Of a DNA stretch of 64,000 nt, positions 14,929 through 63,962 are shown piece by piece. A program made the translations under genes and the position numbers. Where the stretch lies: contig CALUXR010000002.1 of the NCBI GenBank assembly GCA_944324795.1, positions 1 through 64,000 on the forward strand. The letters run 5' to 3'. Each line of letters begins with the position of its first letter. Position 1 is the first letter of the stretch. The notes under the pieces were generated by a model that was not told where the DNA came from, searched no databases, and worked only from the letters and a program-made list of their open reading frames with translations. Source of the DNA: an uncultured Acholeplasmatales bacterium (lineage in GTDB: Bacteria; Bacillota_I; Bacilli_A; Acholeplasmatales; Anaeroplasmataceae).

Positions 14929-16260
14929 TTATTCCTTATATATAACAAAAGAAACTCCGCCTTGTTTTTCATTATAAACTTTCAATTTTAAATCAAAGAA
15001 ATTAACTGTTTTTTGAACAATTGACATCCCAAGACCAAATTCTCCTTTTGATCCTTTTTCATAAGGTTTAAAATTAGCTTTTAAAAATTTATCTTCAATT
15101 GCTTCTCCATCATTATAAATAGTTAATTTATTCTCTTTAGTTGTAATAATAATCTTACTTTTAGCATAACGAATAGCATTATCAACAATATTTTCAACAA
15201 TTGTTGTAAAATTTTCTCTATATCCTAAAAATATACAAGGTTCTAAATTTAAAATAAACTTAATTTTATTATCATTAACATTATGATTATTAACTACTTC
15301 TTTAATAACATCACAAATATCAACTTCACTAAATGGCTTATCTTTATTTAAATATTCTAATCTATTATATTGTAATAATTGATTAACTTTTGATTTTAAA
15401 ACATCAGCTTGCTTCACAATTATTTTAGCATCTTCTTTATCACAAACACCATCTAAAATAGCTTCACCATAATTTTTTATAACCGCAATTGGCGTCTTAA
15501 AATCATGACTAACATTTTGTAACATTTCTTGTTTAATATTTTCACTATTTTTAATTTCTATTCGCATTTGTTCAATACTATCAGATAATTCTCTTATTTC
15601 ATCATCGCCATCATCTATATATCCAACATTGTAATTATCTTTAGTCATATTAGAAATATGGCTTTGTAAAGCCTTTATTCTATTAATCATTTTATTTATA
15701 AAGAACCCTAAAATAAAAGCTAATAAGATTGTCGCTATTGTTATTACAATAATTATATTAAAAATAACATTACGAATAAATCCTTCGTTATAAGTGTCAT
15801 CAACTAGAAAAACAACAAAATTTTTTGTTTTTTCATCAACTCTAAAACAATAATAAATTGTACCGTTTTTAGCTTCATAAGAATTGTTACCAATTTCAAT
15901 TTTATTTAAAAATGTATCTAATTCACTATTTTCTAAAACATTAGTTTCTAAATAATAAGACATACAAATTGGTTTATCTTCTATTTTTCCTTGAATAACA
16001 GATAAACTGCTAGTAGTGCCCCAAATTTCTGGTCTATTAATACCTACATTATCGCCAATTATTGGTATTCCTTTTTGCCAATAATCGACTGTTAATCTAG
16101 TATAATTATCTAATCTATAATACGTCTCCTGTGTTGCTATCATATTTAAACTAAGAGCCAATATGATGATAATTGCACAAAAAATAATAATTAAACTAGA
16201 AAAGAAGATTAAAAAAATCTTAGCTGATAGACTTCTTTTTATAACTTTTTTTTCTACCAT
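14929..16260 (-). CDS. Membrane sensor histidine kinase
   Basis: 443 residues. Two membrane segments (about 13-40 and 163-188) flank an extracytoplasmic sensor domain of about 120 residues. Then come a HAMP-like linker (to about 240), a dimerisation/phosphoacceptor domain with NVSHDFKTP (His 252) and a C-terminal ATPase domain with NIVDNAIRYA and GLGMSIVQ. It overlaps its response regulator gene by 7 bp. The signal is unknown; the sensor domain is not one I recognise. Confidence 0.93.
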   Translation of the reverse strand: MVEKKVIKRSLSAKIFLIFFSSLIIIFCAIIIILALSLNMIATQETYYRLDNYTRLTVDYWQKGIPIIGDNVGINRPEIWGTTSSLSVIQGKIEDKPICMSYYLETNVLENSELDTFLNKIEIGNNSYEAKNGTIYYCFRVDEKTKNFVVFLVDDTYNEGFIRNVIFNIIIVITIATILLAFILGFFINKMINRIKALQSHISNMTKDNYNVGYIDDGDDEIRELSDSIEQMRIEIKNSENIKQEMLQNVSHDFKTPIAVIKNYGEAILDGVCDKEDAKIIVKQADVLKSKVNQLLQYNRLEYLNKDKPFSEVDICDVIKEVVNNHNVNDNKIKFILNLEPCIFLGYRENFTTIVENIVDNAIRYAKSKIIITTKENKLTIYNDGEAIEDKFLKANFKPYEKGSKGEFGLGMSIVQKTVNFFDLKLKVYNEKQGGVSFVIYKE

Positions 16261-16916
16261 AATAGACGATACCCATAACCATAAATAGTTTCAACATTTA
16301 TATTAGGCATTTTCGCTCTTAATCTTCTTAAAAGATCATCTACTACTCTATCACTTCCAAAATATTCATTTCCCCAAACTTGTTCTATTATTTGTTCTCT
16401 TGATAAAGCTTTATTTTTATTTTCTAATAAATAACATAATAAATCATATTCTTTTGATGTTAAAACAACTATTTCACCATTATAAAATACTCTTCTTTTA
16501 TCAAAATCAATTTCATAATCTAGATATTTAATTAAAGTTGTTTCTTCTTCTTTATAACATCTTTCTAATATTTTTTTAATTCTTAACATCAATTCTCTCA
16601 TATTATAAGGTTTAGCTAAATAATCATCAGAACCAAGCTCTAACCCCATAATTTTATCAATGTCTTGATCGCGTGCTGATGTAAATATTACAGGCATATT
16701 TGGTTTTTCTTCTTTAATTTTTTTAATTAAATCATATCCAGAAATTGTACCTGGCAACATTATATCTAATATCCATAGTTTATAATCTTCTTTTATTTCT
16801 TTACTTGCTTGTTCACCACTATTAAATATTTTATATTCATAGCCTTCATTATTTAAATATTTTCCTATTAAATTAGCTAAATTAATTTCATCTTCTACAA
16901 CTGCTATTTTATACAT
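16254..16916 (-). CDS. OmpR-family response regulator
   Basis: 220 residues. The receiver domain has the acidic pair in VVEDE, phospho-acceptor Asp 51 in LDIMLPG, and Lys 102 in LAKPYN. The C-terminal winged helix (about 125-220) ends with VVDDLLRRLRAKM and the YGYGYRL block. It is the first gene of the two-gene unit with the kinase, preceded by its own promoter and, further up, by the candidate small RNA. Confidence 0.95.
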   Translation of the reverse strand: MYKIAVVEDEINLANLIGKYLNNEGYEYKIFNSGEQASKEIKEDYKLWILDIMLPGTISGYDLIKKIKEEKPNMPVIFTSARDQDIDKIMGLELGSDDYLAKPYNMRELMLRIKKILERCYKEEETTLIKYLDYEIDFDKRRVFYNGEIVVLTSKEYDLLCYLLENKNKALSREQIIEQVWGNEYFGSDRVVDDLLRRLRAKMPNINVETIYGYGYRLLW

Positions 16917-16937: not shown

Positions 16938-16966
16938 ATTTTATAATATTTAATAAATAATTACAA
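16938..16966 (-). promoter_or_regulatory. Promoter of the two-component operon
   Basis: TTGTAA (16961-16966) and TAAAAT (16938-16943) on the minus strand with a 17-bp spacer, just downstream of the small-RNA terminator. Confidence 0.55.
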
Positions 16967-16972
16967 TTAATA

Positions 16973-17093
16973 AAAAAATGATAAAGGACAACACTAAGGT
17001 TGTCCTTTATCTGGGAGAGTTATAGTTTGCTTATGAAAAAGATATCTATCAATAACTTAAGGGAGAGTGATAGATAGTGTCCTTATTAGGACA
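16973..17093 (-). ncRNA. Candidate C-rich small RNA (about 120 nt)
   Basis: A transcript is predicted from a good promoter (17099-17127) to a perfect 12-bp terminator stem (16981-16992 with 16999-17010) followed by a T-run. It has a 5' hairpin (17079-17083 with 17088-17092) and a central hairpin (17044-17051 with 17068-17075) whose loop holds CUCUCCC. A second CUCUCCC lies single-stranded before the terminator. Such motifs can pair with GGAGAG-type ribosome sites, as in C-rich regulatory RNAs of Firmicutes. No ORF of useful size is seen. A leader attenuator for the response regulator gene downstream is the main alternative. Confidence 0.6.
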
Positions 17094-17098
17094 TATGT

Positions 17099-17127
17099 AT
17101 AATAACACACAACATAAATTAAATCAA
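17099..17127 (-). promoter_or_regulatory. Promoter of the candidate small RNA
   Basis: TTGATT (17122-17127), a 17-bp spacer and TATTAT (17099-17104) preceded by TGT give a near-consensus extended -10 promoter on the minus strand. Confidence 0.7.
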
Positions 17128-17170: not shown

Positions 17171-17202
17171 AAATTAAAAAAAGAAGTGATTTTTTCACTT
17201 CT
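17171..17202 (-). terminator. Terminator of rpoE
   Basis: An 8-bp stem (17182-17189 with 17195-17202) at the rpoE stop codon, followed by a T-rich tract on the minus strand. Confidence 0.75.
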
Positions 17203-17716
17203 AATTATCATCATACATGTCTTCATAATCATCCATGTAATCATTATATTCATCTTCTGAGAATGAATCATCTTCATCATCTTCATGATAACGTTCTAAT
17301 AAATCACCATTTTCATCATGTTCATAATCGTCATCATCATCTTCTTCTTCATCTTGATCATATTCATCTTGGTCATATTCATCATCATTTTCATAATCAT
17401 TATCATCTAAGATGTCTTCATCATCTAATTCATCATCAACAATAGATTCACCTGTATTAAATTCAGATCCATCTTTATCATATATATCTAAAGATTGCCT
17501 TTCTTTTAAATCCCATTCTTCATCACCCATAAAAACAAATTTAGAACTTGTAGTAATATCTAAATATAATTGGGTTCTATGTTCATAATCGTCATCAGAT
17601 AAACCTTTTGCTTCTAATGTTTGTTTTAATAATTCATTTATATTCATTCTTTCTTGATGATTTGCTAGAATATCATAGGCTACATCAAGCATTGACATTT
17701 CTTGGTAATTTGGCAT
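17201..17716 (-). CDS. rpoE: RNA polymerase delta subunit
   Basis: 171 residues. Delta is a Firmicutes-specific polymerase subunit that speeds recycling and promoter selectivity. Residues 1-80 form the HARE-HTH domain (MSMLDVAYDILA, DEEWDLKERQ). Residues 90-171 are an almost pure Asp/Glu tail, as expected. A GGAGGGG ribosome site precedes the ATG. A consensus promoter lies in the end of the upstream DUF1934 gene. Confidence 0.95.
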   Translation of the reverse strand: MPNYQEMSMLDVAYDILANHQERMNINELLKQTLEAKGLSDDDYEHRTQLYLDITTSSKFVFMGDEEWDLKERQSLDIYDKDGSEFNTGESIVDDELDDEDILDDNDYENDDEYDQDEYDQDEEEDDDDDYEHDENGDLLERYHEDDEDDSFSEDEYNDYMDDYEDMYDDN

Positions 17717-20767: not shown

Positions 20768-21517
20768 TTAAACTAATTTATAAATATGTCTAGTACCATC
20801 TCTATCTAATTTAGAATAATAAGTTAAATATACATATGGACTACTCATTATATCTAGAATAGTTGGAGCTACACCATCACTATCTAAATCTATTCCTACT
20901 TCTTTATATGATCTAGATACTAAATCAGAACAGAATTTTTTACTATCTTTATTTATTATGAAAAAATAATTATATGATTGCCCATAATAACTCATAGCAT
21001 TTAAAAAAGCTTTAAATCTATTTTCTAAAGTAGTGTTAACTCTATAAACCATAAATTCTTTATAATGACCATTTAAGAAATCATAACTATTTTCAACTTT
21101 AGCCGTTATATTACTACCAAAACCAGTTATTTCAAAAGTATCTCCTAAATCAAAATTAATATCTTTAGATTCGTAAGGAAAACCACATAAAGCCGCATGA
21201 CCACCAACATAATAAGTTACTCCTTCATATAAAATAGGATAATTAATATCAGCTGTCTTAGCACAAATTATATCTCCCATATAACCAGGATATTCCCTAT
21301 TTCCAATAACTGTAGTAGTAGGTTCTTCTAATTCAAATTTAGATTTAACTTCATAATATTTAATTTTTTCAGTGCTTTTTTCTTCAATTAGAGTAGCGGA
21401 TTTTACAAATTTAGAAACTGTTAAATCAATTTTTAAATTTTCTACCCCTGAGCCAATTGTAGCCCATATAATAAAGCATAATAATCCTGTTAAAATTAAT
21501 CCTAAAACTCTTCTCAT
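20768..21517 (-). CDS. Membrane-anchored permuted papain-like (YiiX/NlpC-type) hydrolase
   Basis: 249 residues. One N-terminal membrane segment (about 4-22) is followed by an extracytoplasmic domain with MGDIICAK (79-87), GGHAALCG (His 107) and KKFCSDLVSRSYKEVG (Cys 196). The His-then-Cys order fits circularly permuted papain-fold enzymes such as YiiX/YycO, which may act on cell-wall or lipid amide bonds. It runs into dnaX 14 bp downstream. The start has no ribosome site, and the promoter -10 lies only 10 bp before the ATG, so the mRNA may be leaderless. Confidence 0.65.
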   Translation of the reverse strand: MRRVLGLILTGLLCFIIWATIGSGVENLKIDLTVSKFVKSATLIEEKSTEKIKYYEVKSKFELEEPTTTVIGNREYPGYMGDIICAKTADINYPILYEGVTYYVGGHAALCGFPYESKDINFDLGDTFEITGFGSNITAKVENSYDFLNGHYKEFMVYRVNTTLENRFKAFLNAMSYYGQSYNYFFIINKDSKKFCSDLVSRSYKEVGIDLDSDGVAPTILDIMSSPYVYLTYYSKLDRDGTRHIYKLV

Positions 21518-63871: not shown

Positions 63872-63877
63872 TTTTTC

Positions 63878-63962
63878 ACCCTAATCAAGTATTTGTTAGT
63901 GAACCTGGTCAGGACCGAGAGGTAGCAGCCATAAGCTAAGAGATATTGTGATTAGGTTTTTT
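63878..63962 (+). ncRNA. ffs: Signal recognition particle RNA, small bacterial (4.5S) type
   Basis: The conserved domain IV core is present: GGTCAGGACC, a GAGA tetraloop, then GGTAGCAGCC (about 63907-63930). The two ends pair (63880-63887 with 63949-63956), and a T-run ends the gene. It binds Ffh and targets membrane proteins. At about 85 nt it is the short form without an Alu domain. The last 40 bases of the window then show a TATAAT (63980-63985) and GAGGTG before a gene outside the window. Confidence 0.93.

Follow-up and report, generated by a model that had tools for sequence, protein, structure and literature searches.

The closest functional counterparts of the RNA discussed here are the streptococcal csRNAs, which occur in several copies per genome and belong to the regulon of a two-component system of the OmpR family (PMC3091779, PMC8186281). 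A second counterpart is the LhrC1-5 group of Listeria, also multicopy and dependent on the LisRK two-component system, with a responsive element around -53 to -75 and a target, lapB, that encodes a cell-wall-associated protein (PMC4132741). RsaE, FsrA and RNAIII of Firmicutes are different RNAs that share a UCCC motif, and binding of such a C-rich unpaired motif to Shine-Dalgarno (SD) regions has been proposed or shown for them (PMC4132741).

Here we analyse a locus of this general kind in an uncultured bacterium of the Anaeroplasmataceae, on a stretch of 64,000 nucleotides that we call the window. Judging from the sequence and its relatives, we think that the RNA encoded there is probably a trans-acting antisense small RNA (sRNA), a member of a multicopy family in the regulon of the adjacent OmpR/PhoB-type two-component system, with a predicted role in masking the start sites of target messages.

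The window copy

The element is confirmed as a copy of a new family of RNAs of about 120 nt, and it forms a complete transcription unit on the minus strand (16973..17092). It is the first of three copies that blastn finds in its own genome, and the R2 covariance model recovers it at 109.4 bits (E 1.9e-19), a score to which the window copy contributes as a member of the model. Everything that the initial annotation had read at this position is present, namely an extended -10, three hairpins, a strong terminator, a length of about 120 nt and a place between rpoE and a response regulator gene, and folding confirms that CUCUCCC occurs twice, in a 16-nt loop and again in unpaired sequence. Reading along the minus strand, a -35-like TTGATT (17122..17127) is separated by 17 bp from the extended -10 TGtTATTAT (17099..17107), and the predicted transcript start is G17092, where the fold places 5' hairpin 1 (GUCCUAAUAAGGAC, 17079..17092), beginning 6 nt past the end of the extended -10. 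Hairpin 2 (17043..17076) holds the first CUCUCCC (17067-17061) in its loop. The unpaired core CUUUUUCAUAAGCAAACUAUAACUCUCCCA (17012..17041), supported by alignment and motif counts, carries an anti-AUG CAU and an anti-SD CUCUCCC (17019-17013), and the unpaired stretch of the window copy includes CUUUUUCAU and this second CUCUCCC. The unit is closed by an intrinsic terminator of a 13-bp stem and a U tract (16972..17011), the stem running from 17011 to 16980 and being followed by ATTTTTTTA, with the U tract finishing at about 16973.

The folding energy is -33.5 kcal/mol against -14.8 +/- 3.0 for dinucleotide shuffles (z -6.2, 0/200), much of this stability coming from the terminator, and terminator-like sites exceed expectation in the region. 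Promoter hexamers by themselves are not in excess (24 found against 22.8 expected), and the promoter of the window copy is credible because it is conserved at a fixed distance in relatives; indeed, the -10 stands at an equal distance in most copies.

All of the immediate neighbours are also on the minus strand. Upstream lies rpoE (17201..17716), encoding the RNA polymerase delta subunit and matching TIGR04567 above its cut-off, and downstream is the gene of an OmpR/PhoB-type response regulator (16254..16916; receiver PF00072 and winged helix PF00486), overlapped by that of a sensor histidine kinase (14929..16260; HisKA, HATPase_c). Elsewhere in the window there are a gene for a YiiX/C92-type permuted papain-like enzyme (20768-21517), near dnaX-like, ybaB-like and recR genes, and, on the plus strand, a bacterial small SRP RNA (63877-63962; RF00169, 53.3 bits).

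Distribution and copy number

Relatives of the window sRNA were found by blastn in 40 of 100 related genomes. The initial annotation had proposed a covariance search in related genomes, and a model built from 54 copies detects the family in 47 of the 55 Anaeroplasmataceae genomes searched, whereas the 105 other genomes of the order gave no match. A further search of 395 genomes of the class gave chance-level matches only outside the family; three weak ones in other families (E 0.002-0.007) were taken as chance. The sRNA thus appears to be confined to the Anaeroplasmataceae (the Anaeroplasma group), which are gut bacteria, with no convincing match elsewhere. Consistent with this, a degenerate core pattern matched 52 stretches of the named GTDB collection, whose titles read Anaeroplasma, Anaeroplasmataceae or Acholeplasmatales, or belong to vaguer bins (Mollicutes, Erysipelotrichaceae, Bacillales, uncultured bacterium). 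The cultured Anaeroplasma bactoclasticum ATCC 27112 (locus L089) is among these and has two copies. An Rfam search of the window and 18 relative loci returned no family above its cut-off at the position of the sRNA, and spread of the sRNA by viruses was considered and set aside, the viral contigs being devoid of matches.

Copy number varies: 22 of the sRNA-bearing genomes have one copy, 20 have two, four have three and a single genome has six, so that 25 of 47 have two or more, several of them in tandem. Most of these genomes are metagenome bins and the copies are related, and the counts throughout this report are not counts of independent events.

The second copy of the window's own genome, on contig C1, lies between rplS and an ABC transporter gene. 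The third (contig C1:53922-54034; L135:13922-14034) is beside an ABC transporter with an FtsX-type permease and has on its other side an operon of a sigma-70-like (ECF-type) factor, a membrane protein of no assigned function and a lipoprotein, surroundings which suggest envelope stress. Genome G001 (contig C6) has four short copies (L280:1501-1780, L281:1322-1601, L279 and L282) that are devoid of hairpin 2 and of CAU and keep AAACUAUAACUC (UCCC). Two of these stand in tandem, 180 bp apart, evidence of a recent duplication and of a reduction of the RNA.

Sequence and structure of the family

The initial annotation had staked its reading on conservation of the loop motifs, and the CU-rich motifs do turn out to be the most conserved parts of the RNA. 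The core CUUUUUCAUAAGCAAACUAUAACUCUCCCA leads here, being almost invariant in 54 copies with about 20 invariant columns, and its complement reads as a start region, GGGAGAG...AUGAAAAAG; the U run before CAU would match AUGAAAAA. Within the core, UUUUUCAU is found in 54 of 54 copies, a figure that is inflated because the copies were collected by similarity to the core, and CUCUCC in 53 of 54. Of the 54 copies, 50 have a UCCC 5' of the core, with few exceptions in the loop of hairpin 2, and individual folding likewise shows CCC/CUC in that loop in 50 of 54. More divergent members, found by the model, have spacer indels and are sometimes devoid of CAU, and they keep AAACUAUAACUC or AACUCUCCC; the C-rich element is therefore the firmest part.

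As for structure, a GUCUU-type 5' hairpin is seen in nearly all copies, and relatives carry compensatory changes at every one of the 12 modelled terminator pairs. Hairpin 2 is conserved mostly in sequence: 87.9% of its helix cells pair, one pair has changes on both sides, and some copies use entirely different stems. Taken together, the structure scores above both shuffles and slid controls, with the qualification that RNAalifold by itself gave only the terminator and that hairpin 2 was supplied by hand from single-sequence folds.

Many copies of related genera (L015, L024, L027, L029 and others) can form an alternative fold in which GUCUUAU of hairpin 1 pairs with AUAAG(C) of the core and covers the anti-AUG. 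This is the minimum-energy fold in a large share of the 54-copy alignment A2, is absent from the window copy, and might possibly act as an on/off switch.

Predicted action and targets

In the mechanism that we favour, the CU-rich motifs would pair with the SD regions of target mRNAs and the UUUUUCAU segment with their start codons, blocking ribosome entry. That many messages would be masked in this way, as the initial annotation proposed, is plausible. The premise of the initial annotation that GGAGG-like ribosome sites are common holds (AGGAG at 443 and GGAGG at 343 of 1509 predicted starts), GGAG-type SDs are common too, and genes here begin more often with AUGAAAAAA than with any other nonamer. 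Among the 55 genes that combine AUGAAAAA with GGAG, 65% have an N-terminal hydrophobic segment, as against 22% overall, and many are lipoproteins by their cysteine-bearing signal. For this reason a masker with the core sequence would hit mainly exported proteins, and lipoproteins and other exported proteins are the likeliest targets, even though the enrichment is partly explained by the fact that signal peptides start with MKK.

The pairing prediction itself has been less rewarding. The genome-wide prediction of pairing with start regions, again an idea of the initial annotation, gave no signal: duplexes were not above those of shuffled cores or shuffled spacers. Nor was conservation of pairing above controls among 473 start-consistent orthologue pairs from two species of the genus, a comparison that covered about 0.79 Mb of one relative with gene calls by a simple script. 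A cis-antisense target was also sought and rejected, there being no near-perfect core complement outside the sRNAs in the own genome and ten relatives, as is expected of a trans-acting RNA that pairs imperfectly.

These results bear on a second way of looking at the core, in which it is a site for an RNA-binding protein or a sponge for another RNA, and its complementarity to SDs is incidental. The failure of target pairing to rise above shuffled cores fits this, as does the conservation of the whole 30-nt core, which is more than pairing with an SD and an AUG needs. Start-site masking also has against it that the 13-nt spacer between CAU and CUCUCCC exceeds normal SD-AUG spacing unless it is bulged, and that anti-SD pairing does not explain why it is conserved. 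For a protein-binding core there is a precedent, since the csRNAs have a conserved nonamer of unassigned role for which a protein site has been proposed (PMC3091779). Against this, two exposed C-rich motifs, with anti-AUG and anti-SD in the right order, are what a start-site masker should look like, and among the most divergent copies it is the spacer that varies or CAU that is missing, with AACUCUCCC/AACUCC retained. On balance we consider a protein-binding or titrating core unlikely, and we continue to prefer start-site masking.

Common ancestry with the csRNAs?

It is natural to ask whether the sRNA is a true member of the csRNA family, by ancestry or by transfer, which would be compatible with start-site masking. 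The csRNA model of Rfam does match the window sRNA over its full length and on the same strand, at 20.7 bits, and one member of the present family has a 16-nt string, UAAACUUUUUUCAUAA, that is identical in the csRNA consensus (0/300 dinucleotide shuffles). In both families, moreover, CUCC(C)UAA is in a hairpin loop and the RNAs are multicopy and linked to a two-component system. However, 20.7 bits is far under the gathering threshold of 57 bits and even under a chance csRNA match in the same genome (23.5 bits), and among the relatives the csRNA model gave background-level matches only and none above the cut-off. The regulator box also differs from that of the csRNAs, and the 395 class genomes yielded nothing convincing between the two groups, in what was a weak search, the csRNA model being silent even in controls. 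The shared UUUUUUCAU fits homology and convergence alike, because selection for pairing with AUGAAAAAA would yield it independently. We hold membership of the csRNA family to be improbable, and treat the sRNAs as probable start-site maskers of their own family.

Promoters and control by the linked regulator

The OmpR/PhoB-type regulator is a single-copy orthologue, about 59-83% identical, in 51 of 55 genomes, six of which have the regulator and no detected sRNA. It matches no named NCBIfam equivalog; among relatives of solved structure, RegX3 and MtrA come closest. Of the 47 sRNA-bearing genomes, 36 have an sRNA copy immediately ahead of the regulator gene and on its strand, and this linkage persists where rpoE has been replaced as the upstream neighbour.

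When the 110 bp that precede hairpin 1 were aligned for 55 copies, a direct-repeat box, CATAATTTCCCATAATT (CATAAT-N4-CATAAT), emerged in about 80% of them, mostly at exactly 57 bp before the transcript. The [C/G]ATAAT half-sites fall at -57, -47 and -36, the third being GATAAT, so that three direct repeats spaced by one helical turn reach the -35 position. In two copies the box has moved by exactly 20 bp, or two helical turns, to -77, and a perfect TTGACA is found at -35. Copies with a box match the -35 consensus at 2.2 of 6 positions and boxless copies at 3.3 of 6 (P 2e-4, for groups that are not phylogenetically independent), and of the 16 perfect boxes in 55 genomes, 15 are directly upstream of an sRNA. 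Direct repeats at a fixed distance near the -35 are the layout to be expected for activation by a regulator of the OmpR/PhoB type, and the CiaR promoters have a comparable arrangement (PMC3091779). From the linkage and the type of box, the linked two-component regulator is most probably the regulator of the sRNA family; once phosphorylated, it would bind the box and switch on the sRNAs.

The suggestion of the initial annotation that the neighbouring regulator controls the RNA is thus supported at sequence level for the family, with a box at most copies, and not for the window copy, which has a better -35 and is devoid of the box at -57, its upstream region scoring like random sequence. Control of the window copy by its neighbour therefore finds no support in the sequence, and expression of this copy is probably constitutive or under some other control. 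About ten other copies are likewise boxless. A boxless paralogue clade (L042, L045, L073, L074, L076, L084, L088) with a distinct hairpin 2 (CUAUCUUUCCCUAUUAAGAUAG) and a shared coding-like stretch upstream is present in several Anaeroplasmataceae bins. In the own genome the second copy has a strong box and the third a half box, and it is these copies that would respond to the signal. A search of the same genome for the 17-bp box with up to 3 mismatches gave 42 matches against 48 in the control, arguing against a broad regulon, and when the box must be correctly placed relative to a -10 the second sRNA copy alone stands out.

Close linkage raises a further possibility, that the RNA serves the regulator gene as a 5' leader or attenuator, with a terminator that is read through under some condition. 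In 35 of the 36 linked genomes the regulator start codon is only 29-104 nt past the terminator, and U tracts show a tendency to be weaker in linked copies (4.4 U in 9 positions, as against 5.2; P 0.07). Yet the many unlinked copies share the same core, box and terminator, conservation centres on the CU-rich core and not on the junction to the gene, and there is no sign of an anti-terminator that could replace the terminator stem. Most linked loci also have a separate TATAAT directly after the terminator, and in the window a candidate promoter for the regulator gene (TTGTAA-17-TAAAAT, 16938..16966, minus strand) is in a like place. Because the sRNA starts and ends at signals of its own, and the regulator gene in most linked loci has a TATAAT apart from these, the RNA is not merely a leader, and the refuting condition that the initial annotation had named on this point came out in favour of an sRNA; we rate a leader function as quite improbable. 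Still less credible, and almost certainly wrong, is the idea that the conserved entity is a gene for a short peptide, read from the other strand (GGGAGAG...ATGAAAAAG), since, although the core complement resembles a ribosome site and ATG, any RNA antisense to start sites would show such a complement, the opposite-strand frame differs in length across the 54 copies (3 to 35 codons) and ends in no shared C-terminus, and box, -10 and terminator are all on the strand of the RNA.

Returning to the sRNA as a masker under two-component control, a TTG-type -35 stands 17-18 bp before the TATAAT of the regulator gene in 12 of 27 linked loci, usually falling in the 3' arm of the sRNA terminator. In six loci (L005, L007, L008, L015, L022, L030) it reads TTGTCC/TTGTTC and is apparently inside that arm. 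Such a placement may explain why the stem of linked copies keeps GGNCAACC/GGTTGNCC.

A bolder proposal, tentative and in our own estimate rather doubtful, is that the sRNAs are the main output of the two-component system, with the regulator driving almost nothing else. They would then lower the synthesis of lipoproteins and secreted proteins in a lineage related to the Mollicutes, and the -35 of the regulator gene inside the adjacent sRNA terminator would couple the two.

Significance

Our limited literature search found no paper or Rfam entry on regulatory RNAs in the Anaeroplasma group, and the sRNA family is previously undescribed; the functional kind is already known from csRNA and LhrC. 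If our reading is right, this would be a third, apparently independent, two-component system that multiplies its output through near-identical C-rich RNAs, which would suggest that such an arrangement evolves repeatedly in low-GC bacteria. The regulator box, the covariance model, a cultured species and a predicted class of targets are together a resource for testing, and the strict conservation of the core provides a handle on why RNAs of this sort conserve more than an anti-SD element.

Comparison with known systems

How, then, do these sRNAs stand beside those already described? The likeness to streptococcal C-rich RNAs drawn by the initial annotation is apt in architecture. As in the csRNAs (RF02379), the sRNA family has a hairpin, an unpaired anti-SD/anti-AUG stretch and a terminator, it is multicopy and linked to a two-component system, most of its promoters have a direct-repeat box, and it bears a C-rich UCC(C)UAA motif, with CUCC(C)UAA displayed in a hairpin loop in both families. 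The differences are equally clear, however: the Anaeroplasmataceae sRNA has an extra 5' hairpin and a much more strongly conserved core, and its host is of a different bacterial order. The csRNA box is TTTAAG-N5-TTTAAG, 10 bp upstream of the -10, whereas that of the present family is CATAAT-N4-CATAAT and the window copy has neither; in addition, one sRNA copy abuts the gene of a regulator that is without a named equivalog.

With LhrC the sRNAs share multiple copies and a link to a two-component system, whereas UCCC is the sole shared core that we recognise, and the two are set apart by their descriptions and by the Rfam model of LhrC (RF00616), which had no match at any threshold used; RsaE, FsrA and RNAIII likewise had no Rfam match at the sRNA. 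As regards the functional kind, that of multicopy anti-SD sRNAs under two-component control, the family has both several loci per genome and, at most copies, a promoter box at a fixed place. On present evidence, these sRNAs would work like csRNA and LhrC but form a separate family.
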